Assembly: GCA_030248225.1 (NCBI GenBank) | Contig: JASANE010030053.1 | Span: 17,189 to 81,188 of the forward strand | Reading direction: 5' to 3' | Origin: Trileptium ribeirensis | Lineage: Eukaryota > Nematoda > Enoplea > Enoplida > Thoracostomopsidae | Length of the DNA stretch: 64,000 bases | Part shown: piece by piece, positions 2,999-44,952 of the stretch | Position numbering within the stretch: position 1 is the stretch's first letter | Layout: each line of letters begins with the position of its first letter | Translations under genes and position numbers: made by a program | Notes under the pieces: model-generated | The model's input: only the letters and a program-made list of their open reading frames with translations | Databases searched by the model: none | Told to the model about the DNA's origin: nothing

Positions 2999-3808
2999 GC
3001 AGGGAATAACCGGAACCAGCAACCGGAACCGTCAATTTAAACTGGATCCGGAACCTGGTCTTCGAAATTTATATATAGTAAAACAGATGATGGAAGAAAT
3101 GAAGTTATAGTGGATTTAAAATGCATTAAAAATAACTTTTGCATTAAACTTAATGTATTGCGATGGTATTATTGCCTTTCTGAAACTTTAAAGAGACTCA
3201 GGAAGCTAATAATTTTGATTTATCGATCAAATATCGGTTTTTGGACATTCAGAGCATAAAAATGTCTTCAACTATAAACCATTGCGTATATTGCGTCAAA
3301 TCGAATATGCTTACAAAGCTTGGAGCGTAGAATACACACTTTCGCTCTGTCTTCAGTCGCCTCCATTTACTACACATACGTTTGTTGCATGTTCTTCTGC
3401 AGGAAACTTAAAATTATTGGTTTATATGATTCTAAGAGGAAATGATAGAAGGTAATTTTCTGATCAGTGGTCAGAGACACTGTTTAGGCTAGAGCTGGAC
3501 AAACAGTGCCCGTCAGTTAGATCATAATGATGATAACTTTCTAATCAGACTGCTATAAATGAGACACACTGTGATGCTGCTCGCACAGTTTCAATAAATA
3601 CAGTTCATTGCCAAGAAAGCAGTTCTGCTAATAAAGTTTCTAGCTGCGTTGCAGGTAACGTTAGTTTACTTCAATTTAGACTGATTTATCAAGTTTACAA
3701 GCGCACTGGCGGGTGCTTGACGCAATTTATGTTAGCCAAGCATACCCTAAGTACTTCTGCGCAAGCCATACTCTGTTACCGAGTTGGACCGGTTTAATTC
3801 AAACGTAT
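2999..3808 (+). repeat. 0.8-kb LTR-like direct repeat, copy a
   Basis: This stretch is repeated in the same orientation, with small indels, at 4018-4830. Both copies start with a run of CCGGAACC-type motifs. Both contain a TATAAAT box (about 3554 here) followed some 40 bp later by AATAAA (3593), the spacing expected of a short LTR with promoter and polyadenylation signal. Neither end has a clear TG...CA terminus, so 'LTR' is an inference. A 0.2-kb AT-rich spacer separates the copies. Confidence 0.6.
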
Positions 3809-4017: not shown

Positions 4018-4830
4018 GCAGGGAATAACCGGAACCGAAATTTACCGGAACCGGAACCGTCCATTTAAACCGGATCCGGAACTGGAACCTGGTCTTCGAA
4101 ATTTATATATAGTAAAACAGATGATGGAAGAAATGAAGGTATAGTGGATTTAAAATGCATTAAAAATAACTTTTACATTAAACTTAATGTATTGCGATGG
4201 TATTATTGCCTTTCTGAAACTTTAAAGAGACTGAGGAAGCTAATAATGTTTAAATATCGATCAAATATCTCGGTTTTTGGACATTCAGAGCAAAAAAATG
4301 TCTTCCACTATACACCATTGCGTATACTGCGTCAAATCGAATGTGCTTACAAAGCTTGGAGCGTAGAATACACACTTTCGTTCTGTCTCCAGTCGCCTCC
4401 CTTTACTGCACATACGTTTGTTGCATGTTCTTCTGTAGGAAACTTAAAATTATTGGTTTATATGATTCTAAGAGAAAATAATAGATAGAAGGTAATTTTC
4501 TGATCACTGTTTAGGCTAGTGCCCGTAAGTTTTGGATAAACAGTGCCCGTAACTTAGATGATAATGATGATAACTTTCTAATCAGAATGCTATAAATGAG
4601 ACACAGTGATGCTGCTCGCACAGTTTCAATAAATACAGTTCATTGCCAAGAAAGCAGTTTCTAGCTGCGTTACAGATAACGTTAGTTTACTTCACTTTAG
4701 ACTGATTTACCAAGTTTACAAGCGCACGGGCGGGTGCTTGACGCAATTTAGGTTAGCCAAAGCATACCCTAAGTACTTCTGCGTAAGCCATACTCTGTTA
4801 CCGAGTTGGACCGGTTTAATTCAAACGTAT
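4018..4830 (+). repeat. 0.8-kb LTR-like direct repeat, copy b
   Basis: Second copy of the repeat at 2999-3808, with extra CCGGAACC motifs at its left end, a TATAAAT box near 4591 and AATAAA at 4628. The homology stops abruptly at 4830, where a purine-rich low-complexity block begins. A 114-codon open frame inside it (4144-4488) matches no family I know and is interrupted in copy a, so I do not call it a gene. Confidence 0.6.
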
Positions 4831-6416
4831 GCAAAGACGGAGGAAAAAGGCAAGCAAACCGGGAAACAAACCCGCAGGAAGAAAAACCGCGAAGGCCCCC
4901 CGCACACGGCAAAGGAGAAACGCGGGAGGAGCGACAGAAAAAACAGGGAACAAGAGAAAAAAAAGGGAAAAAAACAAAAAAACCGGAACCGGCGGGGCCC
5001 GCCGGACCGCACGAAACACGACGCGGAACGGAACGCCCCGGCAGGAGAAGCAAAAAAGGAAAAGAAGAAAAAACCGGAACCGCCGGAGGCCGCCGGACCG
5101 CACCGGACACGACGCCGGAACCGGAACACCCCTCCCCCCCGCGGCTCCGAGTACCGACCGTAGGCGTAGGCATACTTGAAGGACAACACTTCTATCCCGC
5201 GGATATTACGCTGTCTACTACACCTCGAGGAGCTTCAGGAGGAATTGTCGTACCTGGTCCATACACTTCAGGAGACCTACGCTATGCAATCATGCTCGCT
5301 GCTCAGGACCATCCATTATTTCAATCACGACCAGCTGAACATATTATGGCATCACGACTGCGAGTACCAATGGAAATGTCAACTCAAACTGTAGGAGACT
5401 ATACGACAATACGCCCTTATAGCGCTCCACCAGCAGCTGCCGACAGGCCCATGTCTCCTCATCAATACGTTTTCCGCGAAGTGGCCTTTACACAGCCACC
5501 AGGGTCACCAATGTCCAGCTATTTATCGGAGACATCGGGTGAAGGTACCTCAGTTGACGTGAGAGCAGCTGAAGCGGACGATGAACTAACCAGCCAGACA
5601 TCGCAGGACCCCTCTTCAGCTGAACGACGTGGTCAAGCAGGACAGGAGACGTCCAGCAGTAGTTCTAGGACGCCTACTACGCACCCAGGAACCTCCGACT
5701 CACTAAGTGAATTCACGCTTGCGGAATCGAGTAGTGAACCACCCGCCCACCGAATGGGGATCGTGCAGGCGGTAACATTAGGCACCCCTCCCCGCGCACG
5801 AGCATCGGCAGAAGAACGAGGGAAGGCACTTGTTGGACGGGTCACACAACAAAAACGAGTCACGCCAGCACGAGGAAGTTCAACCATCCAGCCTGGTACT
5901 GTTGACCAACCAGGACCATCCTCGGTAACCATCACTGAGCTGGTACATCCCACTGCTGCTGTTACTACCTCCTCAGGAATAATACGCCTCGGTACGACTC
6001 ATGCGACGGTCCCAACCAGGCATTTGTTACATCGCCAGGCCAGGGATCGGGTCTTTCGGCCATACGGCGCAGCATCAGACGAAGAGGTAGGAGACGCTCT
6101 GCGTAGATCCAGACGTGTAACTTTCCAGGAACCCGAGACGACCACCACTGAAACGGCAGGAACATCAACCAGACTAGCCTCCACTACACGCACACAATCC
6201 ACCACTGTCACCACTTCAATGACAAGTGCACCAACACCAACCCCACAACCGCTTTTAATGGGAGGACGCTCTCCGGGTGGAACCCAGCTACCGACCACAT
6301 TCCCACGATACCCTTCTAGCCAGGAATTACACCCCGCAGCTTGGCGACGACGAACACCCCGACCACCACCCCATGAAGAGTCCGACTCGGACGATCCAGA
6401 CCTACGGGTGGACTAA
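4806..6416 (+). pseudogene. Integrase C-terminal extension, detached from integrase (element A copy 1)
   Basis: An open frame runs through this interval but begins at a TTG inside the 0.8-kb repeat. Its first ~115 codons come from low-complexity DNA, so the N-terminus is chimeric and probably never used. From about 5150 it matches the tail that follows the integrase in copy 2 (43540-44809). That tail has a compact part of about 85 residues containing VGVGILEGQHFYPADI, then a long Ser/Thr/Pro/Glu-rich, probably disordered region, then an Arg-rich segment (RRSRRVTFQEP) and an acidic end (ESDSDDPDLRVD). No known domain is recognised. The tail stays in frame to its stop here, whereas copy 2 has a frameshift. 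It may serve as a chromatin or host-factor tether, as other integrase tails do, but that is inference. Confidence 0.7.
4831..5149 (+). repeat. Purine-rich low-complexity block with CCGGAACC motifs
   Basis: An A/G-rich tract on the plus strand with C/G-rich islands. Two similar segments of about 48 bp, at about 4975 and 5071, share an A-run followed by CCGGAACC, a GC-rich core and a CGCAC...ACGACG end, some 96 bp apart. All three plus-strand frames stay open here because of composition. The block forms the junction between copy b of the 0.8-kb repeat and the element A fragment. Confidence 0.65.
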
Positions 6417-6554
6417 GCCTATATTCGCACGTACCGTAACCCAAACAAACACAACAGGCCAACAAAAGGGGGGTAGAAGAGGGGATCAGGAATACATCCA
6501 CAGGTAAATAAGACTATCCTTGTACTCGGACTTATTTTGGTATATACATTATAG
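6417..6554 (+). promoter_or_regulatory. Spacer with candidate 3' splice acceptor before the first NADAR-SGNH ORF
   Basis: The 138-bp gap between the integrase tail and the next ORF ends in TATACATTATAG immediately before the ATG at 6555. The last 20 bp or so are identical upstream of the corresponding ATG in copy 2 (44953), although the rest of the spacer has diverged. An AG directly abutting the ATG, after a pyrimidine/AT-rich stretch, looks like a 3' splice acceptor that would make the ATG the first codon of a spliced message. Confidence 0.45.
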
Positions 6555-7793
6555 ATGCGACGAAGTCACAGCAGCAACAACGTTCGGGGACCGCTGATCC
6601 CAAAGGGCGTGCCGCATGCCCCGCTGGTTTGTGGCAGCGGAGTCTACCCGACGGTGCCCATCTATCGTATCCGACGAGGGCCGCTCGTGCAAATCTTTGC
6701 CTCCAAAGGCACTTGTCGGCCCTTGCTAGCCAACGAAACTACGACACTCGACACATTCGAGCATAACGGGCGACGCCTATCCAGCGCGTCCGAACATTTT
6801 TATCTCAGCATCTTGGAGCTGCTGGGATTCGACAACGCCGGCAAAGAACTGGCCAAAGCAGACATCAGCCCAACGGAGCTGCAACTCCGCAGCATTGCCT
6901 TGCTACGTCAGCTGCCGCTCAAAAGGCGTCACATGCTCCAGGCCTATTATCCGCACGTCATGCGGCCGATTCTACTGGCAAAGTTCAGCATGATCGAATG
7001 TGCGGAAGAGTTGGAAGCCACCGGCGACCGACTTTTGCTTAGTGCGGCGTTCGACGATTTTTGGGGGACTGGTACGAGCACCGTCCAATGCTGCTGCGAC
7101 CGCACGTTCCATAACGTGACAGGACGGTTGCTGGAAGAGGTCCGGGCGTACCATCGAGACGGCCTCGTGCGTTGGCCCCAAGTCGTCGTCGTGGGCGACG
7201 AGCAAGCGTTGCCCCTACTCAACGCCGCCGACCAACGCAACTGGTTGGTATTCGCATGGCCACGTATGGAGATGGCCGACCTAATCCAGTGGGCCAACGC
7301 GTTTATCACGCCACAGACGGACTGTGTCATCGTCCTGGGCGGATACGGCAAATTATGGCGGGACGACAACACCGTCTTTTCGCCCAGTGCGTTTACCAAA
7401 CGCATCAAGCGAAAGTTAGAGGTGCTTGAGCGGCGACTCCGGGAAAACGCAGCCGTTTATATCGCTCCGCCGCCACCACAATGGAACGCACTCAACTACA
7501 CGAGTGAGGCCTGGGCGACGGAGCTGCGCAATCGGAAACTGCGTCTCACCGCGGACCATCAAGCGCTCCGCAACGTCATCATGCCCGCATGGTCGGTACC
7601 ACTAACGGCACCCGAAGCCTGGGATACGGTCGGACCGTTCAACCGGGGTGAGGATCGCCAACGGTGGACCGAACCGGTGGTAGCGCCCGCTTACCATCAC
7701 GAGCTGGTCAATTGGGTGGGCCATTACGTTTGCTGTACTGGACTCTTTCGCCTCGGCGAACAACGCGGAGCCAGCAACGAAGAAGAAGAATAG
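6555..7793 (+). CDS. Accessory ORF 1 of element A: NADAR + SGNH-like fusion protein
   Basis: A protein of 412 residues. Residues about 58-173 read as a NADAR domain (N-glycosidase acting on ADP-ribosylated guanine): SEH at 79-81, a helical middle, MRPILLAKF at 136-144, TGD at 156-158 and FWGTG at 169-173. The acidic residue normally found before the WG motif is Ser here (LLLSAA). Residues about 188-392 resemble an SGNH hydrolase: VVVVGDE at 210-216 where GDS is expected, VIVLGGYGKL at 258-267 and an APPPP strand at 304-308. No nucleophilic Ser follows GD, and the usual C-terminal DxxH is not evident, so this half may be non-catalytic. There is no signal peptide or membrane segment. It is about 27-30% similar by eye to the next ORF along its length. 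The start is the first ATG after the candidate splice site. The frame is intact, unlike copy 2. Confidence 0.82.
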   Translation: MRRSHSSNNVRGPLIPKGVPHAPLVCGSGVYPTVPIYRIRRGPLVQIFASKGTCRPLLANETTTLDTFEHNGRRLSSASEHFYLSILELLGFDNAGKELAKADISPTELQLRSIALLRQLPLKRRHMLQAYYPHVMRPILLAKFSMIECAEELEATGDRLLLSAAFDDFWGTGTSTVQCCCDRTFHNVTGRLLEEVRAYHRDGLVRWPQVVVVGDEQALPLLNAADQRNWLVFAWPRMEMADLIQWANAFITPQTDCVIVLGGYGKLWRDDNTVFSPSAFTKRIKRKLEVLERRLRENAAVYIAPPPPQWNALNYTSEAWATELRNRKLRLTADHQALRNVIMPAWSVPLTAPEAWDTVGPFNRGEDRQRWTEPVVAPAYHHELVNWVGHYVCCTGLFRLGEQRGASNEEEE

Positions 7794-8054
7794 GACTAGA
7801 GGGGGGAACATATTTGCACGTAGGTACCTCCAGCCAAAAGAAAGCAGGTGATTAGCGAGAAATCCTGAAACACCCTAAAGCAATAGAAAACACAGCCTCT
7901 TAGGGCATAGAGAATTCCGTCTGCGGATGCGCGCGAGAAATCAGGAGCGGAGGTAGAAATCACGCAGCTATTATATCTTGTTGCACTAGATATGCAAAGC
8001 ACAAACTGACTATTGCGAAACGGGACAAAACCTATAAAGGTTATATTATTACAG
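7794..8054 (+). promoter_or_regulatory. Spacer with candidate 3' splice acceptor before the second NADAR-SGNH ORF
   Basis: This 261-bp spacer ends in TATTATTACAG directly before ATGGACAACAGCG. Copy 2 has TATTATTGTTACAG at the same place (ending 46463), while the preceding 200 bp have drifted more. The pattern repeats that of the first accessory ORF. An upstream in-frame TTG at 8013 would add 14 residues, but it is not conserved in copy 2, so ATG 8055 is preferred. Confidence 0.45.
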
Positions 8055-9389
8055 ATGGACAACAGCGTTCGGCAACGCGAAAACAACAAACAGGACGACT
8101 GCAGCGTTCGGCGACGCAGCGACAGTCAACTGGACCAAAGCGTTCGGCAACGCAACGTCAATGACATCAGGCGCTCCGAAGGCGGTCCGGCCCGACGATT
8201 GTCAGCAGCCGGACCATACGCTCCGCCCGAAGCAACTACCTACCGCCTGCCCATCATCCCAACGTACCATGTCGACCTGACAAAGCCGTACGTTCCTTTC
8301 CTGTCGCACGGTACCGAATGGCCGGAGCTGTCCAACATGCACGAAGCCCCGACGCCATTCCATCACGACGGTACCACAGCTCCAACCGTCGAACAGCATT
8401 ATCAAGTAAGGGTGCTTCTTGTACTCGGCCTGATGGAAGCGGCCAAAGAACTCATGGACATGGTAGGCACGCCGCAGCAAATCAAAGCAAGAGCACGGGC
8501 GCTCAAGGACGAACTGGTTGACAATATCACCAGCGCCCGGCTCAAACCGCTGCTGGAACACATAATGCGGCCCATATTGCTCCGCAAATTCAGCATTTCC
8601 AGCTACGCGCGGATCCTGCAGCTCACGGGAAACCAACCGCTCCTGGAGGTAACCACCGATACCTTCTGGGGCATCGGACGCACCCTTCAGCAATTGCGGC
8701 AAGGCGAGCAACCCAGACATTGTCACAATGTCATGGGGCGGCTTTTGGAGGAGGTGCGTGAATACCTCACCTCTGGCTACGCTTGCTGGCCGCACGTCAT
8801 CATTATGGGTGACGCGCTCCCGCTGCCGCTGCTGGAAATGGCAAATGACAGTAAGTGGCTAGTTTGCGCATGGCCTGGCACCACGTTAATACGCATGATC
8901 CAACTCGCCAGCGCCGTCTTGACGCCACTGACTAAATGCGTTATCTTACTTGGAGGCTACCAATACATTTATCGGAAGGCGCAACCGGAGCAGCTCCATG
9001 CGACCAACCCTAATGCAGCCTTCAAGAAGATTAAACGCCATTTAGGGATGCTATCACGGCGGATGCCAGCACGAGCACCCATTGTAGTCGCACCGCCGAT
9101 ACCCCGTTGGGCCGCGACTAACCAAGACGCAATGTCTTGGACGGCCGAATTCAAACGCATCGTCGCCAACCATCGGCAACAGCATGATGCATTCCATAAT
9201 GTCTATTTCCCGAACTGGCCAGTCGCTTTTAACGCGGCAGACGCCTGGGAGCGGGATGAACCGCATATGGAGTGGCAAGAGCGCCCACAGTTTGAGGAAC
9301 CCATGGTTTCCAGGTATTGCTTGCGAAATTTACGGGAGTGGGTTAGCCAGTTGGTGCGCGACGCCGAACTCGGTCGTCTAATGCAGTAA
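8055..9389 (+). CDS. Accessory ORF 2 of element A: NADAR + SGNH-like fusion protein
   Basis: A protein of 444 residues from ATG 8055. The first 40 residues are charged and carry three spaced SVR[QR]R motifs. Residues about 81-208 form a clear NADAR domain: PFLSHGTEWPELSN at 81-94, then HHDGTTAPTVEQHYQ at 103-117 with the family's conserved Glu (113), HIMRPILLRKF at 169-179, TGN at 191-193, LLEV with the second acidic residue (198) and FWGIG at 204-208. NADAR enzymes remove ADP-ribose from guanine in DNA; an intact active-site set suggests activity here. Residues about 226-435 are SGNH-like: IIMGDA at 249-254 (Ala where the catalytic Ser would be), VILLGGY at 296-302 and VVAPPIPRW at 344-352. 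It is paralogous to the ORF at 6555 and probably arose by tandem duplication inside the element. No transmembrane segment is visible. Confidence 0.87.
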   Translation: MDNSVRQRENNKQDDCSVRRRSDSQLDQSVRQRNVNDIRRSEGGPARRLSAAGPYAPPEATTYRLPIIPTYHVDLTKPYVPFLSHGTEWPELSNMHEAPTPFHHDGTTAPTVEQHYQVRVLLVLGLMEAAKELMDMVGTPQQIKARARALKDELVDNITSARLKPLLEHIMRPILLRKFSISSYARILQLTGNQPLLEVTTDTFWGIGRTLQQLRQGEQPRHCHNVMGRLLEEVREYLTSGYACWPHVIIMGDALPLPLLEMANDSKWLVCAWPGTTLIRMIQLASAVLTPLTKCVILLGGYQYIYRKAQPEQLHATNPNAAFKKIKRHLGMLSRRMPARAPIVVAPPIPRWAATNQDAMSWTAEFKRIVANHRQQHDAFHNVYFPNWPVAFNAADAWERDEPHMEWQERPQFEEPMVSRYCLRNLREWVSQLVRDAELGRLMQ

Positions 9390-10358
9390 GCGAGCGCAAG
9401 GATAGAGATAACGCATAGACCGCTAGGTAATTAAGCCAAAGCGTGCGAACAAGTAGAAAATCTACGTGTACGATAGGAGTGATCAGAGCAACTAAGACGA
9501 GTAACGACGAAACGCATCCAACCTGAATAGGGAATAATCCGTAGCAAACAGCCAATAGAATAACTCAGAGCGAATAAAGTAGGATCCAGACACAGCCAAC
9601 CAAGCTAAGTATTGCGGATAGTACAAACAACTCCTAAATAATCTACTTGTGGTATAAAAATCTAGTAAATTGAGCGAAACCCAATTAGGAATTATCCAGC
9701 AAAACTACTGAAATTTCAAATAACGGGAACTTCTGGGATTTGGCACTCCGGCGGCCGGACCTTTTCCTGGGGGTTCCTTAAATCCAAGGCATGGAACCAA
9801 TCCCTGACCCAAAATCTTGGAGGTACGTGCTGCGAAACAGCGAAATAATGTAATACTGTATATAGATATGATGTTATGTCATGTGAGGAACGGGGCCACA
9901 TATTGCTTTCACAAATAATAAACACTATTTTCAGGAAAATATTTTCCAAGACTAAAAATAAAACAAACTATCACAAAATATTATAGGCCATAAGGGAAAA
10001 CTTCCAAAATTACCGAAAATAAAGGGAGAAGGGACGCGTTTTTGGTGATAACCAAACAGTTTGATCGTCCTTCTACCCTCGTTTTAGCAAATTTTAGCAA
10101 ATTTTTAACAATTTTAGGAAATTTTTGGAATATTATTCGGAATTTAGGGCAATTTTAAGCCCAAACGGGTTAAATTCTACAACTTTCACGCCCAAACGGG
10201 CCAAATTTTCGAATTACACACCAATTTCATTTAATTGAAATCAAGGGCTGTACATCACACGGAATTAATCACGCAAAATTTTCACTTTTTCACATCTCAA
10301 CAAATTTAACTTACTACCATAAGTAAGGAGTCTATAAAATCCAAAAAATTTTAAGAGA
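9390..10358 (+). other. 3' untranslated region of element A, copy 1
   Basis: Non-coding DNA between the last ORF and the 3' LTR, collinear with 47788-48725. Conserved blocks include a segment around CCGGCGGCCGGA (about 9748) and a purine tract of about 20 bp ending GGGAGAAGGGACGCG (about 10018-10040). The latter resembles a polypurine tract but lies 320 bp before the LTR. A weaker purine-rich run (TTTTAAGAGA) directly precedes the LTR in both copies. Confidence 0.6.
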
Positions 10359-11636
10359 TGTAACAGCCCGAGTTTTGGTCGAAATCTCAAGTATCCAAAA
10401 TCAGGCCATAGGGGCCTCAAAATTCAATGGATAAAGGGCGATCGGATACAGGTGGAGCGTGGTCCGGACTATAACTTGTGCATTATTGTTCGTTGTTATA
10501 AAATAAACTTCATGTCATCATTATATTGTATTGATACGGTCACGTTCCACCAGCCCGAGGTGCGCGGGGTGATTTCGCACCCAAAATTGAATCAATATCT
10601 TATGGTTAGGGTATCCGATCGATCCCCGGACAATTATTGCTCTATATATATTAAAACGTTGTGTCATTTATTTGTGTTGAAGTATGGGACGGATGCGTAG
10701 TCGGATCGGCTGGGGACAAGGGGGAGAGATTTCGCGTTTTATCACAATTCGGCTTAACACTTTCGTCGATTAGGTGCCCCAGGCTCAGTCCAAATGCGCA
10801 TCCGTGGGCCGTAACGTATATATAGTTATCTGTCATCCGCTTATGTAATGTGTACCGTGTACGTGTCCGGGTGTCAGGATGGGTCGGGGTGGTGCGCTGG
10901 ACCATCAGGACAAAAATGCGTTTTGAGCTTTCTAATGTCTTGGGGACCTGGAAAGATCTATCCTGACACGCCGGGCAAGGAAAACTGTTATTTCATTAGT
11001 ATTCTAATTCATGTATGTTTTAAGGGACGTTTTGAGTACGTGGGAAGAAGGATAAAATCGATCTAAAATGACTAAATTTTCATTTTCAAGGGGTATAGAA
11101 ATTTTGGAATTTTGGGGGTTTTTATAGATTTCAAACAAAAAGGGGGATATCAAACTATCATCAGGACCCTATAAGGCTTCGAAATCACTCGTTCGGGTCA
11201 ACTTACTCCCAACCCGTAAATACTTATGGACCCCCAATCCGGCGTTTAAACTCTCAAACTTTAGGGCCCTAAATCGTCACAACTAAAACAAAAACTCCCC
11301 GACTTTTTGAGCCCTGCACCTTAATTGGGTCCTATACTAACTATCTTATTGAAAACCGGGGCCACCCGCCCCAACGGATCTTTACGGGACCCCCATAACT
11401 CAGTGGGGACCCAAAATTTCCCTATCGTCTACACATTTAACTGCTTCTAACGGGCCTCCTAGGGGAACTACATAAAATTTTGGGTTCTCATAAGTAGGCG
11501 ACCAGCCAGGGCATGGATACGATCCCACCTCCGGCCGCCTACGCCCTTCCGTTCCTGAAATATAATCAAAAATAAAAAAATCTAAACACATATAAAGCGC
11601 CTGAAGCGCTTATATATATCGCCATTGCTGAAAAGG

Positions 11637-11658
11637 CCTCGCGCCGACCAGCGCGAGG
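11637..11658. promoter_or_regulatory. Conserved hairpin in LTR U3
   Basis: CCTCGCGC, a 6-base loop, then GCGCGAGG: a perfect 8-bp stem. The identical palindrome occurs at 50019-50040 in the second LTR, while the solo LTR near 54400 has a decayed version. It lies about 320 bp upstream of the TATA box. It could be a protein-binding site or an RNA structure at a 3' end. Confidence 0.5.
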
Positions 11659-11972
11659 TTTGGTTGTTTACGCTGGCCTTTGGCAGCTTTCGGCCACTGC
11701 CCAATATAGCTTTGTTGTTGACCAGGACAAAATATTATTATTGTTATTTCGGCATAGGGCCACATCGTTGTTTGCTATAACCGACTTATAATTGCTGTTG
11801 CATACAAATGTAGGCGAATTCGTTTAGCGGCTGTTGTATTTTGTGTATATATATATATTCGTTTTTGCGGTATGTTGCCAAGTTATTAAAATTTCAAATT
11901 TTCAAATGTTGGAAATTTTCAGCCAAGTGGTGCTACAGAGGCCAGACAGAAAAAGGGGGGGTTTAAGTTAGG

Positions 11973-11980
11973 TATAAAAG
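11973..11980 (+). promoter_or_regulatory. TATA box of element A LTR, copy 1
   Basis: TATAAAAG followed by GAGACTGCCCGATTCCCCGAT-like sequence. The same TATA box and downstream block occur at 50333 and, in diverged form, at 54645. This is the likely Pol II core promoter, with transcription starting about 25-30 bp further on. Confidence 0.65.
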
Positions 11981-12315
11981 AGACTGCCCGATTCCCCGAT
12001 CGGAGCCAGTCGAGCTTTTAAGTTTAGGCTTTGGCGGTTGTCGCCATTTATTCAAACTTTCAATCTTTTTTGGGTTTTCGTTTTTTTTTCTTTTTCGTTT
12101 GAGCATGCCAGGGGTGGTTTCTCGCCGTGCCTCCACGGTGGAGAGCCTTCCCTGGTTTTCTTGCTTCTTTTCGATCAGCAAGGGCCGCCCTTTGCGGACG
12201 TTGGAGTGTCGGAAGGATGCTCCGCGCGCCCGTAAAGGGCGGACCCCGTTGAAATCTCAAAATTGCATCAAAATTAGTTAAAATTTTGCTCGCTCGCATC
12301 TCGACTGGTTCCCCG

Positions 12316-12353
12316 CTCCTCGGACGCCTTTTTTCGTTTTCAGGTCCGAGGAG
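12316..12353 (+). promoter_or_regulatory. Perfect stem-loop in transcribed LTR region
   Basis: CTCCTCGGAC pairs with GTCCGAGGAG across an 18-base loop. At 50674-50712 the same 10-bp stem is retained although the loop sequence has changed. The downstream arm directly follows a pyrimidine-rich CAG, so the hairpin could hide a splice acceptor, or act in genome dimerisation or packaging. It lies about 340 bp after the TATA box, within the RNA. Confidence 0.5.
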
Positions 12354-14177
12354 TGACCAAAATTTATCCTAAGCAATTGAAAGCGAGCAAACGCTCTTTT
12401 TAAGCAGAACTAGTCAAAATTGTTTAAGGCTTCGGGCAGTAAGCCAGAGATTTTGTTTAAGGTAGTTCGGGGCAAGTAAAATTTTATTCTAGGGATGAAA
12501 GCCGTTCAAAGTGAGGCACAAATTTCTTTTCTAAGGTCTGGTGCAAAGAAAGTGATGATAAGCGAGAGCCTGATTGAAAGCTGCCTTTCTAGATGAGCCC
12601 CTTTTACAATGTACATGAGGTAGACAGGGGACGTAGCCGTTTGCATCCTTTGGGTGACACGCGTTGTCCCCAATTGTTTGAGAATCGAACTTCAGCGTCG
12701 AATCCTCATTCGTTCGCTGTTTCTTTTGCTTCCGGTTAGATTTCGATGCAAACGACTGCGGGCCTGAGCGTAACAAAAAATTTTTAGGAGGCTCATCAGC
12801 TGAGCGTAGAGCGAAACAGAGACTGGAGCTGGCGGTGAAGCTAAGGTATACTGAGCCTTGGTGGGACGTGGGTTTTCTAACCGTGCAACTACGGGGAAAT
12901 CTACGTCGGCACCCTCTCCCGGAGCTCTCTGGGAGCGAGTTTCGAATTAGTTCGGATCGTGCGTGAGCCGCTCCAGTCGCTGCTGAAACTGGTACAAATT
13001 TAGAACCTTCGGTCCCGTTTTTCATTCAGAAGCCCGAATCACGTAATACAAAACCATTGAGGGATACTAGGTAACTAAACGTTAAGTGACAGGAGACTGT
13101 TCTCGGAAAATTGTTAGGGAATTCATCGGTCTCTGAAGCATTTCGTCTGGCCTGGTTAGATTAAAATTTTAGGGTGTCATTCAAGGATGGCTCGAAATGT
13201 ATTCCAGGGTGTCTTGTAGGGCACCCGACTAATTCTCGTTATATTGTGAATATTATTATAATTGAGTGTTGTATGCCCCGATTGGGCAGTGTCATATAGT
13301 GTGCCAAATGCAAAAAAGGGATCAATAGTAAAACGCTTGAACCGTGTGTCACTTCTGGAAGCAGTTCGGAATTTGGTTTAATTGTCCGATCACGCTAGTT
13401 TTAGGTTAACCATAGTAGCTCCGACAAGCACTCTTAAAGATCTATGAACCCAAGTCAATTTTAACCACAGTGAGCAATGCTTCTTCACCACCACGCCCGC
13501 CTGACTAAGTTCTCCCGCACGCCTCCGTCTCAGAGACCGAACCAGCGATCTTCTCAATATTTTGCATTATACTCGTATTATCAGAAAAGCCCCGCCGCCA
13601 TCCTTCCGCAGTAAATCGTCGCCTTGCACAACCCGTCGCTTAGGTTGCAACTCTAACAATCAAAATCTTGACTCTCAAGGGACTGGGGCCCTCGCCTCAG
13701 TGCCCTCTGAGTTATCATGAGCAATCAAGAACTAGGGAACATACCCGGACTAAGACTTTTAGGATTTGCGCACGCTTATAGTCTAGGCATCAGGGTCCGT
13801 TGTGCCATGCTCTAGGATTAGAAACATGACCAAGCGCATAGGGATACCCCAACGGGAGATCTCACTAGGACCAGAGAACCCCGTTTAAGGGATTAAGTGG
13901 ATAATGAGGGAAAGGCGAGTCAGCCTTACTACCTGTGAGCAGGCTTAAGGGTTGACTCTCCCTCGGGGGACCTTTATGCCACTAGATACGTGGGCCACTA
14001 TAGGGGCCAGGCCGAACACCCTGGTTAACCCGCCGGCAGCCTGCTAAGCTAAGCGGTTCCCCTAGGTCGTCGCATAGATCACCGGGGAGTCGTGGAAGCC
14101 GGGGTTGTCCGGGCACCACAACAGAGTAAACAGTGGTGCAGCTGGGATCCCTTAGGGCCAGAACTGGTCCTAGTACA

Positions 14178-15106
14178 TAATCACGCTCCACCAGCCCGAG
14201 GTTAGCGGGGTGATTTCGCATCTAAAACCGAATCAAAATCTCATGGTTCTGGTATCCGATCGATCCCAGGATTGCTATTACAATATAAATAATATTGATA
14301 TACTAGTGTGTAATTGATTTGCATTGGAATGCGGTACGGATGCGTAGTTGGATGGGCCGGGGACAAGGGGAAAGATTTCACGTTCCATTACAATCTGATT
14401 TAACAATTTTGTTGATTAGATGCTCCAGGGTCGTTTCCGGTGCGCATCCGTCAATGGTACATATTCATGTTTATTGTTGAATAATTGAATGTATACTGTA
14501 TATGGTGCCAAGTGTCAGGATGGGTCGGGGTGCTGTGCGAGACCCCCATGACAACAGCGCGTTTTATGGTGATTCGGGATCTAAGGGAAACCTATCCTAA
14601 CACACAGGGAAATGAAGAATTATTGTGCATATATAAATATTTCATGGGGTGCTGTGAGTAGTTGTTTCATATTTTAGGGAACGCTATGAAAATATGACCA
14701 AATGACTAAACTCAACTTAAAAAGGGGTACTTCATGATTTTGTAAATTTTGGGATCTTTTAATAGTTTAAATAAAAGGGGGGTGGTAGCATCGTAATAGG
14801 GGATCTTTCAGGCTTCAAAATTGTTCTTGCGGGTCAACCTAACCCCAACCCGTAAGTACTTATGACCCCCAATCTGGCGTTTAACATCCCAAACTTTACG
14901 GTTCTAAATCACCACATCTCAAACCAAAACTTCCCGATGTTTGGAGCTCTGTATCTTAATTGGGCCCTATACTAACCATTTCAGTGAAAATCGGGGCCAT
15001 CCGCCCCAACGGATCTCCACAGGATCCCCATAACTCATTTGGGACCCAAAATTTTACTATCGTGCACGCATTAAACGGCCTCTAACGGGCCTTCTAGGGG
15101 AACTAC
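14178..15106 (+). repeat. Truncated second LTR fragment of the element A family
   Basis: This begins abruptly within the LTR: TAATCACGCTCCACC corresponds to 48903, about 177 bp into the LTR. It follows the family through the block at 11451-11470 and stops at 15106, where a different LTR (TGTAACGAAAG) starts. It lies head-to-tail after a complete LTR and is broken at both ends, as nested insertion or recombination between LTRs would leave it. Confidence 0.7.
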
Positions 15107-23400: not shown

Positions 23401-25324
23401 TAACACACTCCAAGTCATCACGTTACAAAATAGATAGTCCGATGTTAAACGTTCCAGGGCATGTCGGAACCCTGTGGGGGCCACAGAGGCTACAAAGAAT
23501 AAAGTGCTCAACCAAGAATAAACTCAGTGGAACTCAAAGTTTACCTAGCAAACCTAAACTATCACGCGTTTTACCTTGGATCATGCTAGACAAAACAACT
23601 TCCTTTAGATTAGGATAGGGAATATCGATTAGACATTATGACCTGTGAGCAGGTTTCGGTGTCAACCTCCCTGGGGGACCTCAGTGATCATACCAGGATA
23701 CTAGACACGTGCGCAACCAATCGGGCGGGGTCCGAACACACCCCGTGAAGAGCGCCTGCGGCCTGCTAAGCTCCGTAACTTCTTGGGTCTGACCAAGAAA
23801 AGTGGCTAAGTCGTGAAACATATGGTCCACCCTTGAGGTTATGATAGCCGGGGTCGCAAGGGCATGGTGTTAGGAAGTTGCGCCATGCAGCTGCGTCACC
23901 GTTATTACATCGTTGGGGGCCACGCCGTGAGGCGTCTGTTCTGTTTCAATGACCGCAACAATGATAACCGCCACTAAGAACTTTGAATTTTTACGCTTTA
24001 ACTGCTATGAACAACCTTTTTTGTTGACTCTAATCTCCTATTTTCGTGGACCTCTCGCAATCCGAAAGCTTCAGGTGCCTATTTTTGAACGGTTCACCAG
24101 TTACCTTGTATGTGTACTTTAACCTTTGGATGTTTGATTTGTATTGTGCCCATGTTACCGTTATTTGTCTTACGCCGGTCCTGGTATGCTTCATCGGTTT
24201 CCGTGTTCGTCACGTGGATCCGTGTTGCGGTCTATGACTCCACCACGCGCGCTGACCTCACACACAGCTATATCCAACTCGACGGGCACAATTTCAGGAA
24301 TTGCCTACTTGCGTTGTGTTCTAATTTGCCTAATTAATTAACCTACTAATCAATATCATTGTGTATATTTACTCGCCTGTGACTCCGTCATTTTAAAGTA
24401 TCTACACGTCACCAGTACCTCGGCACAACGACTCTCGTTTTATTGGTATATTGACTGCGTCTTATTGCGGCAGAACCACGGATCGTTATTGACTCTGTGA
24501 CGTTTATTCGCCGAACTGTTACAGACCGTACAATTACCCTTATCGACTGTTGCTCAAGTTGAATCGTTTGCTATTCCGGGCCTACGGGACATTGTATACT
24601 GCCCCTGCGTCCGTTCGACAGCCAGACCGTCGATTTAACTGCGGGACTGTTACACGACACTGACATTCGTTGTGCCGGCCGCGTTTGGTGGATAATCGCT
24701 GATCGTTTCACGGGGACAATCTATTTGGACAATCCTCCATCATAATGTCGGAACGTTCTCGCGCATTACTGGCCTCCGCCGAAGGGTAGTGGACATTATC
24801 GACTGGATACTGTAATCTTTGTTTTATATTCTTTTTATTTGTTTGCTAATTTTTGTAACTTTTCTCGCTTATTAGTTTAACTGTGCGACATTAATTGCTT
24901 TTCTATTTTAATGCTTTTGGCTCTTATCTAACTTATTGTGTACACTACTGTTTTTGTCTGCTTATAACTACTTTGTTTAACGTGATAATTTTCTTTCTGG
25001 TTCGTAACCGCTACTTTGCTTCGCTTGTTGACGTTTGGAGAAGGTTAAGTGGCTCACGTCGCTGATCAGGACCGTTGGGTTATTCGGATACCAGTGAAAA
25101 CACGTTCAGAGAAATCGTACAGTTGTGAGTCATCTAAGATTTTACGGCCATTGAGATTTAGTAACGCTAACTTTTGTGCGCCCCATTAAATCATATCAGA
25201 ACGTGCCTAAATATTGATCGCATCCAATCGCCCGTACTCTAATCAGTGGCCTTACTGCTGATTTGTTTTACACGTTTTCATCTACCCAAACACGCACTAG
25301 TATTGAGTAAGTGTGATTAGGACG
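20500..25324 (+). repeat. Putative 5' LTR and leader of element C
   Basis: This starts at TGTAACAGACCG. A segment at about 23640-23890 resembles the end of the element A LTR (CTGTGAGCAGG..., CCTGCTAAGCT..., then ...CAGCTGCGTC before TTATTACA at 23909). That suggests an LTR of about 3.4 kb from 20500 to near 23909, followed by 1.4 kb of leader up to gag. Neither the end nor the primer-binding site is certain. No coding sequence is recognised; all frames are short. Confidence 0.4.
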
Positions 25325-27551
25325 ATGGACCCTAACGTCGATCATAACGGAGACTTGGGAACCGACGACTTCCTTGGCTGGACTGACGGACATATGGAGG
25401 ACGACTTACGTGCCAGGCCCCGACGTGCCGCCGGCACTAGTGAGCGACCGCTCACTCCCCCGCCCCGACCTCCTGGACAACTTCGTCGAGGAGAAACACC
25501 CGAATCACCTGGACTGGATACAAATACTGCTAACGCCATCCTGCACCACCTGACTAACCAACCAGCTGGTCCCCCTATGATCCCTTTGAGAGATATGCTA
25601 ACTTTCGATGGGAAACCGGGAGGCCAGGACTTCGAGGACTGGGTTCGGATGTACAATCGCCTCGCCAACGCCAATGGTTGGGACGATCGTCGGAAATTAA
25701 TTTGCGTACCAGCTCTCTTGCGTGAACCGGCAAGGGAGGCCTTTAAGGGCCTTCCACCGGGAAAACGCCAAAGTTTTCTAGGATTGGTCGCTAATTTACG
25801 CTTTTTGTTCTCATCGTCGCGCCGCCCTGAGAAATCATTGTCGGGACTGTGCACCCGACAACAAGGAGCGAATGAGCCAGTAGCCAGTACGGTTTAGAGT
25901 TGCAGAAGTTGTGTGATCGCGCTTTCCCCGACATGGAAGATGAACAGCGGGACACGATGCTTCGTATGTTTTTCAACGAGGTTTACGACCTGAGGTGCGT
26001 AGGCAGGTCCTCAACCAGATACACGAGTGAGAGACATTTCGGGATACTGTGGGTGTTGCTAAGCGATACGAGGACGCTAGCGCTGCGTGCCCTGAGCCAG
26101 ACGCGCCCGTCGCTAGTAAGCCTCGTGCCAAAACCGTAAACTCCTTACTTGAGGAAGGAGGTGAAGGCCTGATCACACAGCTTCAAAACATGATGGAGGA
26201 ACATCGTAAGGCGAACAATAATAACAGCGATACTATAAGTCGGTTGCTGGATGTAATTGATAAACGGGTCGAGAGCCCGCGCTAGCTTAATGCTCTAGCG
26301 CCGCCGTTTGTGCCCGGCTCACCTGCCGCGCCCCCGTGTTTGCCGATACCGCATATTATTTGCTATCGCTGTGGAGAACCAGGACACGTCATGCGTGAAT
26401 GCCCGTATAATGTGCGTTACCCGCCTGCTGCGAATGGTGCGCCGCGCAATGTTGACCCCGCCCCAGCCTATGCATCCGGAGCTGCGCGTCGAGAGCCAGG
26501 GCAGCAAGGACTAAGAAATGGCGTGGGTGCCTACCCACGAAACTATAACTTTAATGCGGGCCGAGGAGGCCCACCGCCGCAGTTTCGGCGAGCCGAAAAC
26601 GAAAACGGATATCGGAATAATTCCGGGTGGAACAATCCACCCAATGCGGTAATGCGACCTAGTGGCCCGAGTCAAGCGGGACCGCAATATGGTCGACCAC
26701 CGCCGGGATTCGCTAATAACGATAATCGCAGAAATGGAGAATATGCCGCCAACCGCCCAGTTGATAACTATAACAACAGGCCGGCTCAGGCCTACGGATA
26801 TCAACGGGCCCAAGGCGAACGACCCCAACCTAATAGAGGCATGGGGCCCCAGCAGCCGCAGCCTGGTCGATTTTATTCACGGGACGACAACAACCGGAAC
26901 AGCGGTGCTGTACCGCGCCGGCGATACCAGTTAAATTGTAGCGCATCGCAAGGTAATGGAAATAGAGAACCAAGCCCAGCCACCACTCATCGCTTAGAGG
27001 TACTCAGCCGTGAGCTCGGTATGATTCAGGGCAAACTCGGGCATAGTGAACCAACGGGACGAGTAAACGCTATTGCGAGTAAAGACGAACCACAATATGA
27101 CGACGACGGATATTTGGTAAATCGACATGACGACCGGGACGATTTTGAGATGATGGAAGGACTTGTTGAGAGACACCTAAACGTGATCACGTCCACTTCG
27201 TGGGCTGATGCCGCGCGTCTTCCACGGAGCCGTGATCTAGTTCAGGGTATGGACAGCCCCGGACTTATGGAATTGTGCCCTAGGGACTTGGACGACGAAC
27301 AATACGGAATTGAACTGGCTAACACTGTATATAGCAAAGAAAATACAAAACACCAAAAAGAGGGATACTTGGAAGAGGGATTGTCTATGTTATGTGTGGA
27401 TGCACCCAGCGCGGGTGTTAACCCACGTGTATATATGTCCGCGAGCGAAGTAAATGGCAAGCAGCGAGGCGCGCGAAGGATCGATCAATCGAACTATCCG
27501 GCCCTGCGAGGGCTTGGAACGAACGAACGAACTTTAACCGCAGTGAAGTAA
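25325..27551 (+). pseudogene. gag: Gag and truncated protease start of element C (gypsy-like)
   Basis: From ATG 25325 (context GACGATGG) the N-terminal half has a proline/arginine-rich lead and a Ty3-type capsid segment (LRDMLTFDGKPGGQDFEDW). Frame changes near 25800-25990 and an in-frame TAG near 26283 interrupt the capsid. The frame then runs from about 26286 to 27551. It holds a CCHC zinc knuckle, CYRCGEPGHVMREC, an Asn/Gly/Arg-rich RNA-binding tract and, near the end, a stretch like the first strand of a retropepsin (YMSASEVNGKQRGA). The catalytic Asp-Thr/Ser-Gly expected next is absent, so the protease looks deleted. The protein would package genomic RNA. The lesions mark a dead copy. 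Confidence 0.75.
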
Positions 27552-27558
27552 TGGTAGT

Positions 27559-29262
27559 ATGGAGATTTGCGAAGAAATGGAAGATGGTTGCGTTCAAAAT
27601 TATAGGTTGAGTGATTTTAGAGGAAACGTTGATTTTATAACCGGTACTCCCCAGGGAATCACCTCAAGGGGAAATTCCGGGACCCCCAGCTCTTTGGAGA
27701 TGACTGCAGAGATTGTGAGTGAAGATGATGTTGTAGTTGTTGATGAGCCATTATTATTATTTTCCTCCTCTGTGGCTGGCCATCCGTGTGTTGAGAGTGT
27801 TGGTGTTGATGATTCCCGCAGGGAAGCCGATGATGTTGATATGGCTCAGGAAGAATTGGACTTATTCGGGTCGCCGTGTGAGGCACCCATGGAGTTTTTA
27901 GAGGTCGACGAACGACCAGGGACGATGGAGGCTAGGTTGGACGATGAAGACATCTCATCAGGGCCGCCTGGCCCTAGTCCTGTTCTAAATTATAGGTCGT
28001 ATAATGTAGTATGTGGGCCGGACCGCCGCGCGGGTCGTCCCTTGTGTGCTGATGAGAATTGTGTGTCGTATGAGTGTATTGACTTGCCTAAGTTAGGACG
28101 CGGTTGTAGCCTTAGTGAATTCTTGGAAGATGATAATGGAAGTGATGTTGATGTAATTGAATGCTACTTCGAACCGGCGAAGTATGCTACTGATGGACTT
28201 GAGGTGACTTTCCCGACCTCATTGGCAAGGGGTTCCACGGTCATTGGGTCCTTCCTTGATGCTGACCGGGGCCGCCCTTGTCACCCGTACCCAAGCAGAG
28301 GTAGCGATGGGTTCGCGGCCGATCGCGCCAAAGAAGCGGGTATGATCGTTGGGGCTGAAAGTATTGCCCGGGGTCTGCCCAGGCACGGGGATGTAGATGG
28401 AAGGGTGGCGAATAAAGACTGTCCATCGCATTGTGAGGCTTCCGTCGCGCCTACCGTCGTTGAAGCGCGCAACGACGTTACTTGCAATGAGCTAAGTTTT
28501 TTTTTCAATGAATCTTGTGTTGAAATCAGCGTGAAGGATAGCGCTGAGTGTGTTGAACTTGTTGAAGTTGTTGAATTGAAGGCGTCGGATGAACTCCTAA
28601 TGGAACGAAGCGGATCCGCAGCGAGCGATGCGAACTATTTCAGCGAAGCGAAAGTTTGTAACATAAGTCGGGGTACCCCGCAGGAACGCGATTATGGTGG
28701 GAATGAACCCGAAATTGAGCTCGAGCACCGCGTAACTGTAGCGCCGGCGGAATTAAATGATAATTATGATGAGTCCAGTGATAGTGAAATGGATGAGGAA
28801 CGTATGCTGGATGACGGGGAATTTTGGGCCAACTGGGTGGATCCGAATGCCGACTGGTACCGACGCGAACCCAGCCCTGACGCACGAGAGTGGCATAGTG
28901 AAGGGGTGTGTGAAGTGCGTCGTGGACATAACAACGAACTACCGCGTGCACCATCAGATGACGGCATTGATTTAAGCCTGCGAGCCAGTCAATTGTCTAT
29001 TCGCTCTGAGGAAGGAGATGGTGCTGCTGGAGGAAGCGATCTAGGCGAAAGCAGCGATAGTGGCAGTATCGCTACAGGGAGTGTGAATGAGCTGAGTTCG
29101 GATCCATTGGTCGAGAGCATCAGTAGAGACCCTATCGAAGGGACGCCTTGTATGCGCCTGGGTAATTTAGATGGCTCCACTGATACATTGGCCGACATTT
29201 CCAGCGAGATATTGGGACCCGTCGAAGAGGCGCCTAGTATGCCCTCGTGTAAAAAGCTGTAA
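27559..29262 (+). CDS. Unidentified acidic ORF of element C
   Basis: 567 codons starting 7 bp after the gag frame stops (ATG 27559, context TAGTATGG). The product is strongly acidic, rich in Asp, Glu and Ser, with no membrane segment and only short hydrophobic patches; it is probably largely disordered. The first ~40 residues may still belong to the protease region. The C-terminus carries repeats of a short motif (IEGTPCMRLGN, then VEEAPSMPS) that recurs at the start of the next ORF. No reverse transcriptase or integrase motif is present, so this is not standard pol. It overlaps by 92 bp with an upstream-extended reading of the following frame. The function is unknown. The frame is open over 1.7 kb despite broken gag. 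Confidence 0.55.
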   Translation: MEICEEMEDGCVQNYRLSDFRGNVDFITGTPQGITSRGNSGTPSSLEMTAEIVSEDDVVVVDEPLLLFSSSVAGHPCVESVGVDDSRREADDVDMAQEELDLFGSPCEAPMEFLEVDERPGTMEARLDDEDISSGPPGPSPVLNYRSYNVVCGPDRRAGRPLCADENCVSYECIDLPKLGRGCSLSEFLEDDNGSDVDVIECYFEPAKYATDGLEVTFPTSLARGSTVIGSFLDADRGRPCHPYPSRGSDGFAADRAKEAGMIVGAESIARGLPRHGDVDGRVANKDCPSHCEASVAPTVVEARNDVTCNELSFFFNESCVEISVKDSAECVELVEVVELKASDELLMERSGSAASDANYFSEAKVCNISRGTPQERDYGGNEPEIELEHRVTVAPAELNDNYDESSDSEMDEERMLDDGEFWANWVDPNADWYRREPSPDAREWHSEGVCEVRRGHNNELPRAPSDDGIDLSLRASQLSIRSEEGDGAAGGSDLGESSDSGSIATGSVNELSSDPLVESISRDPIEGTPCMRLGNLDGSTDTLADISSEILGPVEEAPSMPSCKKL

Positions 29263-29284
29263 CCCAAACGAAGTAGGTGCGACC

Positions 29285-30913
29285 ATGGAGGAATCCGTCG
29301 AAGGGAGACCATGTATGTCCCCGGGTAATTCGGAGGAATCTGTGAGCGTGATTAGCGAGGACTCGGACACGTGCATGGGACAAGAGAATCTGCTTAACTT
29401 TATACGTGAAGCTAACGACGAACGAGTACACCGACTTGACGAACAACTATTGGACATGTCTGGACTTTGCCTTCCCAATAATACGCCGATAGAACTTGGA
29501 CGAGTTAGAGCATTAACGGACGAGGAACGAAGCCGAATCCTCGGAAACGACACACTGTTCACTATGACCGCAAATCATACCGAGACTACAGCTTATCGAT
29601 TCCCTCGCATTGAATTGACCGAGGATGCGCATAACGAGTTAGCTGAGGGACTCATATCAATTAACTTTAGGGCTAGTGAGATAAATGCTGACTTCGGACA
29701 ACCGTTAGCATTGCAACCGCAGGCTCTCTTTTATCGGAGAGTAATACTTGTAATGGAACAGCTGAACAATTTGAGCCGACTTTTCGAGCTCCGTTTTGAG
29801 GTCGCCACTCGCCCCGCCTTGCAGCGAGACGCTGCCATGTTAAGCAGTATATTAGGCATGGCTTCTCCAATCGGATGCATGACTGGGAGGTATCTCGGTC
29901 CCGTAACTCTTGCTTCGTTGGAATCTTTCATAGAACTGGTGGGTCAATGCATGAATGGCCACACGCTCCAACAGGTTATTGAGAGAGAATTCGAGGTAGA
30001 GTCAAGTAGGGATCCGGTATGTCGACAGTGCCAGGAATGCCATACAAGAGATTCGCGGGACATAGGTTCAGGCTGCTACTTTTTCGGTCAACGAGGAAGG
30101 TGGACTTACGATGGTACGCTGAGTACCGCTTGCGCGTCCATCCTCCCGGATGGATACGTTGCACCTCATTGGCCTTTCTATGTCGGAATTCAATCGGCCA
30201 AGATGCAGAAAACTTTCCGCGAGGCAAACCTTGAGTTACACGACCTCTTGTGCGAGGCGCCCTATTTGATCGAATTCATCTACCGGAACCAAGACACACG
30301 TGGTGTTCCGATCAACTCCTTTGTTGACCAAGCAATAAGTAATATGGAATTTGACGACGAAACCCACCGACTTGCTCGACTAGTGCTGCTGAGCGCACGC
30401 TTGAGACTTTTGGGGCGCCCCGACATTGCTGGACTGCTTGAGACAGAAGGAGACACGTCTGCTGGACTAAAGTTGGGCAGGGACCGCTTAATTTCGGAAC
30501 TATGCTTGTTTCCGTACGATGACTCCAACTGTCCCGTCCCGAATTTGGACGAACAGTTGACCACCGCTTTAGCCGCTTACCTCGACTCATCTGAAGAGGG
30601 ATCGGAGGATGACTCCAACAGCGACTCCGCCCCGCACGAAAGCATAACTGAGTCGAGTGACACGGAAACGAGCGACGGGGAAACCAAAAGCGACATCACG
30701 GAAGAACCTGCGCATAACAAGACCATGAGGGAACCCAATCGAAATGGGGTGCGACCCTCTTCCCCGAGCCTTAGTATTGGCCTCGGACATCCTTCAGGTA
30801 TGTGGAGGGTGTGTACAATTTTGTTGCTTCTTTGCACGCGCTTTGTTGCTTCTTTGCACGTTTCTCTACACGCGCAACTCTTTCGCCATTCAGCGACTCA
30901 ATCTCGCGCTTAG
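29285..30913 (+). CDS. Unidentified ORF of element C with Cys cluster and acidic tail
   Basis: From ATG 29285 (strong context GACCATGG) the product is 542 residues; an upstream ATG at 29171 would add 38. The middle (about 75-440) looks globular and helical, with a Cys-rich spot CRQCQECHTRDS followed by a conserved-looking CYFF. An acidic Ser/Asp/Glu tract (SSEEGSEDDSNSDS) follows, and the end is hydrophobic (WRVCTILLLLCTRF). I recognise no family. The N-terminal VEGRPCMSPGN repeats a motif from the preceding ORF. A CAG/GTATGT donor-like site at 30795-30803 and a pyrimidine-rich CAG near 30946 suggest the last codons may be intronic. It may be an accessory or structural protein of the element. 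Confidence 0.55.
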   Translation: MEESVEGRPCMSPGNSEESVSVISEDSDTCMGQENLLNFIREANDERVHRLDEQLLDMSGLCLPNNTPIELGRVRALTDEERSRILGNDTLFTMTANHTETTAYRFPRIELTEDAHNELAEGLISINFRASEINADFGQPLALQPQALFYRRVILVMEQLNNLSRLFELRFEVATRPALQRDAAMLSSILGMASPIGCMTGRYLGPVTLASLESFIELVGQCMNGHTLQQVIEREFEVESSRDPVCRQCQECHTRDSRDIGSGCYFFGQRGRWTYDGTLSTACASILPDGYVAPHWPFYVGIQSAKMQKTFREANLELHDLLCEAPYLIEFIYRNQDTRGVPINSFVDQAISNMEFDDETHRLARLVLLSARLRLLGRPDIAGLLETEGDTSAGLKLGRDRLISELCLFPYDDSNCPVPNLDEQLTTALAAYLDSSEEGSEDDSNSDSAPHESITESSDTETSDGETKSDITEEPAHNKTMREPNRNGVRPSSPSLSIGLGHPSGMWRVCTILLLLCTRFVASLHVSLHAQLFRHSATQSRA

Positions 30914-40264: not shown

Positions 40265-40294
40265 CAATTCAAAATTCCACAGTCCGGTACGCGG

Positions 40295-44809: not shown

Positions 44810-44952
44810 TCCTAACCCATACTCGCACGCACCTCAACGCAAGTAAGCAAGCCTGTCCAACAGAAGGAGGGTAGAAGGGGGTTAAAGCAAATATCCGCAG
44901 GTAAACTAAATTATCTTTATATCCAGACTCATTCCCGGTATATACATTATAG

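Follow-up and report, generated by a model that had tools for sequence, protein, structure and literature searches.

The 64,000-nucleotide stretch of the Trileptium ribeirensis genome analysed here (hereafter the window; positions 17,189 to 81,188 of the forward strand of contig JASANE010030053.1, in the assembly GCA_030248225.1 of 687,459,628 bases and 20,229 contigs) carries two tandem open reading frames (ORFs), ORF A and ORF B, which are genuine accessory genes of a nematode Ty3/Gypsy-type long terminal repeat (LTR) element and are both under strong purifying selection. ORF A (6555-7793 of the window, plus strand, intact) encodes 412 amino acids comprising a degenerate NADAR domain and a C-terminal domain without family match, and ORF B (8055-9389, plus strand, intact) encodes 444 amino acids from its ATG, comprising a NADAR domain and the same C-terminal domain. 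The NADAR fold is known from enzymes that remove adenosine diphosphate (ADP)-ribose from DNA and RNA. The two products are most likely accessory proteins that would either act on marks of the ADP-ribose type or take part in RNA processing.

Two accessory genes downstream of pol

A preliminary description of the window, made from its letters alone, had noted two intact, adjacent and paralogous ORFs with NADAR domains. Both ORFs are indeed present on the plus strand (6555-7793 and 8013-9389), the second being delimited mechanically from a TTG at 8013; its natural start is probably the ATG at 8055, which stands at a conserved ACAG directly before the ATG. Their paralogy is borne out by 35% identity over nearly the whole length, and each contains the motifs that the description names for it. 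The NADAR assignment stands for ORF B, which belongs to the NADAR superfamily by its match to PF08719 (E = 9.6e-14, 52.4 bits, cut-off 35.1), but not for ORF A taken alone, which remains below the same cut-off (E = 7e-6, 26.8 bits). Residues 1-50 of ORF A occur in at least two quite different versions among the copies, MRRSHSSNNVRGP and MRRSYSATD/ANDIQ at their beginnings, which may reflect recombination. Protein database searches gave no match among 7978 candidates with ORF B (E 1e-3) and none among 8000 scored with the query A3 (E 10); a Polinton-type NADAR of the same genome (described below) matched 11 of 15 candidates. The PDB searches returned chance-level matches only, one for ORF B alone (E 0.33) and three for A3 (E 0.055-0.33), none of them named NADAR or SGNH, and scans of IMG/VR with A2 and A5 found no relatives.

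The element to which the two genes belong is recognised from the pol ORF of locus L013 (2-7402), which encodes an aspartyl protease (511-594), RVT_1 (868-1027), RNase H (1090-1215), H2C2 (1512-1570) and rve (1586-1684). This order of protease, reverse transcriptase, RNase H and integrase is that of Ty3/Gypsy elements, the assignment being made by domain order. The survey of related copies that had been proposed for ORFs 3' of the integrase found both ORFs after the end of pol, ORF A first and ORF B behind it, in 8/8 upstream loci read elsewhere in the genome (L013-L020, six of which also belong to the 32-copy alignment described below). In these loci ORF A follows the pol tail at a distance of approximately 140 nucleotides, with ORF A disrupted in some of them (e.g., L013 and L015), and the same pol tail closes the pol ORF in all eight, with a single substitution in L019. 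In the window this tail, rich in Pro, Ser and Thr and with the terminus DSDDPDLRVD, occupies 5151-6416 (plus strand) and is 75.7% identical to the sequence from 43542 onward; its frame is open from 4773, with 4773-5150 lying outside the match to the second copy. The ORFs had been placed after a gypsy-type integrase tail, and this holds insofar as 5151-6416 corresponds to the end of the pol ORF, but the integrase itself is missing from this window copy and is found in other copies. The same gene order recurs in a decayed second copy within the window (5151-11673 against 43542-50056, 75.7% identity, then two further colinear matches). This copy contains, on the plus strand, an integrase core (rve, 42121-42585; PF00665, E 6e-13), an integrase C-terminal domain (MLVIN_C, 1.7e-5, below cut-off) and the pol tail, all in broken frames (42121-44809), followed by ORF A broken by frameshifts and stops (44953-46194) and ORF B broken by frameshifts (46464-47787).

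A single window alone could not exclude that ORFs A and B are a host gene lying beside one insertion, or decayed passengers devoid of function. No support for this was found, and the recurrence of the order in eight loci and in both window copies stands against it, as does the pattern of substitution among genomic copies. A genome search with ORF B yielded 2634 first-look candidates, the best 92 of which were scored; all 92 match, at 79-100% identity, and 65 are listed without an internal stop (count from the table). Thirty-two copies were aligned, including that of the window, comprising 12 at the top of the ranking of 92 and 20 distributed further down it; one of them, near a contig start, was replaced by its ranking neighbour, and in six loci (L003, L007, L008, L030, L031 and L033) the ORF A side is truncated where the contig ends. 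The closest pair differs by 3.15% in ORF B, and a simple test finds the frame of ORF B open in 23/32 copies, that of ORF A in 14/32 and both in 11. The pooled ratio of non-synonymous to synonymous substitution rates (dN/dS) amounts to 0.077 in the 32 copies of ORF B and to 0.121 in 26 copies of ORF A, against 1.8 and 3.4 in the shifted-frame controls of ORF B, 1.5 and 2.1 in those of ORF A, and 0.57-0.86 in the spacer between the two ORFs (28 copies). Within ORF B, dN/dS is lowest in the NADAR domain (0.047), followed by the C-terminal domain (0.061) and the N-terminal tail (0.25). From 5-8 copies of the element, values of 0.009-0.015 were obtained for the protease, reverse transcriptase, RNase H and integrase, of 0.056 for the region that precedes the protease and of 0.110 for the pol tail. 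Low ratios relative to the controls, set beside those of the enzyme domains, indicate that selection maintains both ORFs, under a looser constraint than that on the replication enzymes. Gene order together with dN/dS and its frame-shift controls refutes the host-gene or passenger reading, whose probability we consider negligible, and upholds the earlier view that the ORFs are genes of the element.

The C-terminal domain, the active site and candidate functions

The C-terminal domain of ORF B (8778-9386, plus strand; dN/dS about 0.06) and its counterpart in ORF A (7164-7790, plus strand) had been described as SGNH-like. Close to its beginning the domain has a GD that never varies, and Gly, Pro-Pro and Trp are invariant at other positions; these features are the source of that impression. 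Block I of SGNH hydrolases has the motif GDS, which includes the catalytic Ser. In the 51 C-terminal domains listed for this position (some loci cover one copy twice), Ser is replaced by Ala (GDA) in 27/27 domains of the ORF B type and by Glu (GDE) in 24/24 of the ORF A type. No SGNH family appeared when the C-terminal domains alone were compared with Pfam up to E = 5, the sole listing being HMG_box at E 0.07, below cut-off, in one of three domains, and a PDB sequence search with a 15-row profile of the domain gave no match up to E = 10. Two AlphaFold2 models, one of ORF B and one of the C-terminal domain of ORF A (predicted local distance difference test score of 38.9 each), are too poor to interpret. 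These results do not bear out the SGNH-like fold, and the domain is, as judged by sequence searches, a conserved one that matches no known family or structure.

Both ATGs are directly preceded by an A/T-rich stretch resembling a splice acceptor, at 6536-6554 for ORF A (ACATTATAG, with ATTATAG at its end) and at 8036-8054 for ORF B (TTATATTATTACAG), both on the plus strand. An AG precedes the ATG of ORF A in 24/24 copies covering the site (8/32 copies do not align there) and that of ORF B in 31/32. The major-base frequency in the 19 columns before the ATGs is 0.947 and 0.941, compared with 0.79-0.91 further upstream, a moderate difference. A donor-like GTAAATAAG occurs at approximately 6504, some 51 nucleotides upstream of the ORF A ATG, with GT in 6/9 aligned sequences. 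These AG sites are putative splice acceptors, which could serve either cis-splicing or spliced-leader trans-splicing. Each ORF may be made from its own spliced messenger RNA, perhaps one that is trans-spliced to a spliced leader.

With somewhat less than even confidence, we favour a role related to ADP-ribose on the nucleic acid of the element or of its host, in which ORF A would be a pseudo-enzyme partner. NADAR enzymes reverse guanine ADP-ribosylation, as stated in passages of PMC11543638 and PMC11125620. The residues of the P. nicotianae enzyme (those given in passages of PMC11543638) were placed on the ORFs through two alignments, one from the PDB and one comprising 11 NADAR domains. In ORF B, E127 corresponds to E43 (32/32), E212 to E125 (32/32), D216 to D130 (32/32) and W219 to W133 (30/32). 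Because this Glu/Glu/Asp/Trp set is retained, ORF B is proposed to be a diverged NADAR that has kept the ability to recognise a group of the ADP-ribose type on element or host nucleic acid; it could protect or process the RNA or complementary DNA of the element. ORF A retains E43 (26/26), D130 (28/28) and W133 (27/28), and the loss of a further catalytic Glu is the reason for proposing it as a pseudo-enzyme that serves as a partner or regulator. Conservation of the C-terminal domain comes close to that of NADAR, and this domain might supply targeting or assembly.

Several observations weigh against this preferred role. The position of Lys50, a residue without which a tested enzyme does not hydrolyse guanine-linked ADP-ribose, is Val in all 32 copies of ORF B, where the residue just before it is an invariant Arg, and Leu in ORF A; the ADP-ribose-contacting Trp89/Arg93 pair is lost in both; and the Glu125 position is Ser or Asn in 28/28 ORF A copies. 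At the catalytic positions Glu43, Lys50 and Glu/Asp125, ORF B reads Glu/Val/Glu and ORF A reads Glu/Leu/Ser or Asn. In the E. coli C7 NADAR, K95 and D171 (the equivalents of K50 and E125) are required for activity, with K95R being active in vitro, according to passages of PMC11543638. To this are added a bias towards intact copies, the 32 having been chosen among the 92 places with the best scores, and a genome search for spliced leader 1 (SL1) RNA (RF00198) that gave no match among the 50 of 214587 candidates scored and none in controls, a result uninformative on absence. Judged by these losses of catalytic residues, ORF A and ORF B both fall outside the standard NADAR hydrolases; ORF B could be an altered form of such an enzyme. 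The YbiA/DarT1-associated NADAR hydrolases (PDB 8bau and 2b3w; passages of PMC11543638 and PMC11125620) resemble ORF B in the equivalents of Glu43, Glu125, Asp130 and Trp133, and differ in that ORFs A and B are devoid of the essential Lys and the Trp/Arg pair; the NADAR domains of ORFs A and B show 20-28% pairwise identity to the fragments in 8bau and 2b3w.

Such a degenerate active site would also fit an adaptor in RNA processing of the kind represented by SNA-3, by which element RNAs would be drawn into splicing, trans-splicing or export without hydrolysis, and the acceptor-like sites that touch both ATGs point in the same direction. The host is a nematode, as seen from 64 matches among 104 candidates for the N-terminal cuticle-collagen family PF01484, which we take to be nematode-specific, and from a degenerate COX1 copy that reads by eye with TGA as Trp and AGA as Ser. 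The collagen family had no match in 14 control genomes either, a comparison of little weight since those known by name are prokaryotes. In passages of PMC9303266, SNA-3 is nematode-specific, is inactivated by mutations of NADAR residues and has a first NADAR domain without the conserved key residues, and it thus resembles ORFs A and B as a nematode NADAR protein partly devoid of key residues. It differs, by the description given there, in being a C. elegans host gene product of 937 amino acids with three NADAR domains that functions in SL1 trans-splicing. This likeness is one of description, and the RF00198 search, which does not establish absence, is a point against an adaptor. Moreover, four active-site residues of ORF B are kept almost invariably, a conservation for which a pure adaptor would have no need, and we regard this explanation as somewhat unlikely.

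The same conserved pocket residues of ORF B count against a structural or nucleic-acid-binding role in a particle or ribonucleoprotein, where NADAR and the C-terminal domain would act as a scaffold in the manner of an ORF1 chaperone or of an accessory virion protein at the position of env in simple retroviruses. Location 3' of pol, tandem duplication followed by divergence and the weaker constraint on the N-terminal tail of ORF B (dN/dS 0.25) are in keeping with this role, and oyster Tx1 long interspersed nuclear elements (LINEs) also seem to hold NADAR in their ORF1 proteins (passages of PMC12477816). No structural domain was recognised in the Pfam and PDB searches of the C-terminal domain, and we judge a structural role decidedly unlikely.

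Further features of the element and of the window

Downstream of ORF B, a putative 3' untranslated region (9390-10537), colinear with the second copy, precedes a 3' LTR of about 3.6 kb (10538-14177, ends approximate). The latter is delimited by repeats of 10540-11471 at 14181-15106 and of 13794-14179 at 41644-42029 and by matches in 48903-52892. According to these repeat matches, the 5' part of a second LTR (14178-15106) abuts the first, and the second copy would extend from the end of its 5' LTR (41644-42030, 85% identical to 13794-14179) to a 3' LTR at 48903-52892, its ends likewise approximate; all these features lie on the plus strand. An LTR length of approximately 3.6-4 kb is deduced from the window repeats, among which no complete LTR pair or target-site duplication was recognised. 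Rfam and tRNA scans of the window gave no hits.

Upstream of the protease, the long ORF continues in L068 (C4863:68400-71400) and in L013 (pol residues 1-490, without Pfam match). By eye this stretch is envelope-like, with a basic motif, a hydrophobic segment and a membrane-spanning segment before the protease, and a position upstream of the protease in the same long ORF is an unusual one for such a protein. Gag-like ORFs at 25307-30913 of the window, one with a CCHC zinc knuckle, apparently belong to a related element, and part of this region resembles, by eye, the L068 region upstream of the protease. A reverse transcriptase ORF at 40265-41605 (RVT_1, 57 bits), DIRS/Ngaro-like by eye, lies just before the 5' LTR fragment of the second copy. 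Just upstream of the truncated first copy there is a tandem duplication (2999-3808 and 4018-4830, 89% identical), and an integrase-like fragment, BEL/Pao-type by eye, lies on the minus strand at 60754-61389.

NADAR genes elsewhere in the genome and in other systems

A genome search with PF08719 yielded 2317 first-look candidates, of which 150 were scored, every one of them above the cut-off at 123.7-140.6 bits, a far better match than that of ORF A or ORF B. ORFs were read at 26 of these NADAR loci (20 and 6; L051 and L052 gave no ORF of listed size) and chosen genes of eight were compared with Pfam. A packaging ATPase of the Poxvirus-A32 type lies beside NADAR in L041 (exactly at cut-off), L043, L044 and L066, and a TATA-binding-protein (TBP) homologue in L044, the sole locus from which a likely TBP gene was taken to Pfam; the putative capsid gene of L064 had no significant Pfam match. 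From this gene content, the clusters with ATPase and TBP appear to be Polinton-like. Most of L041-L060 and L063-L066 hold stand-alone or N-terminally extended NADAR genes in such Polinton-like clusters, which form part of a very large NADAR expansion in this genome. In two other loci, NADAR is located directly downstream of an ORF for an AAA_11/AAA_12 (superfamily 1-type) helicase (L061, 3-2060 and 2191-3033; L062, 524-2149 and 2153-3013), and L057 resembles these by eye. The classes of element also differ in the NADAR domain itself, some domains of the Polinton type (L041, L043 and L066) lacking the E125 equivalent and carrying Phe for W133.

In a small unrooted tree of 11 sequences, ORFs A and B group in a single clade with long branches (support 1.0), separate from the NADARs of the Polinton and helicase types; this suggests separate uptakes of NADAR by different classes of element, within the limits set by long branches and few sequences. 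It is conceivable, if unlikely, that in one nematode lineage unrelated elements took up NADAR independently, the reason being that their host uses chemistry linked to ADP-ribose or nicotinamide adenine dinucleotide, possibly tied to NADAR-dependent trans-splicing, to mark or process nucleic acid that invades it; the twin ORFs would then be a counter-system with a catalytic-like and a pseudo-enzyme member.

NADAR domains have been described in other mobile elements and viruses. In passages of PMC12477816, a Gypsy lineage of the brown alga Ectocarpus (e.g., Gypsy-12_Ec32) carries a YbiA-family NADAR inside Pol. This lineage is likewise a Ty3/Gypsy element that has acquired NADAR, but by its description the nematode element differs in having two separate 3' cistrons, a fusion to a family-unmatched C-terminal domain and a partly lost active site. 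The Tx1 LINEs of Crassostrea gigas, as described in the same source, are also animal retroelements with NADAR, but they are non-LTR elements with NADAR at the ORF1 position. Roniviridae resemble the nematode element in a viral use of NADAR and differ in being RNA viruses, as described in passages of PMC11287256. The Medea interval of C. tropicalis includes genes with NADAR/YbiA-like homology (passages of PMC7853720). The preliminary description knew of no LTR retroelement with such a cassette. This must be narrowed, a Gypsy NADAR being in print for Ectocarpus, but it stands for twin cistrons: neither two separate NADAR cistrons 3' of pol nor a nematode case was met in the open-licence PMC literature, where nothing was found on TBP in nematode Mavericks either. 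New here are the animal host, the two separate 3' NADAR cistrons, the new domain fusion and the partly lost active site, as well as a genome in which unrelated NADARs sit in Polinton-like and helicase-bearing clusters.

The selection data indicate that two NADAR genes are retained by an animal LTR element and belong to its life cycle; this shifts NADAR from the theme of bacterial antitoxins to that of eukaryotic mobile elements. Because nematode NADAR is already linked, through SNA-3, to SL1 trans-splicing, an essential and mechanistically unexplained step, ORFs A and B offer a handle on NADAR function in animals, and also on whether ADP-ribosylation of nucleic acid is a mechanism directed against mobile elements in nematodes. 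The retention of both genes suggests an unexplored relationship, whether contest or partnership, of mobile elements with the nucleic-acid chemistry of their host.

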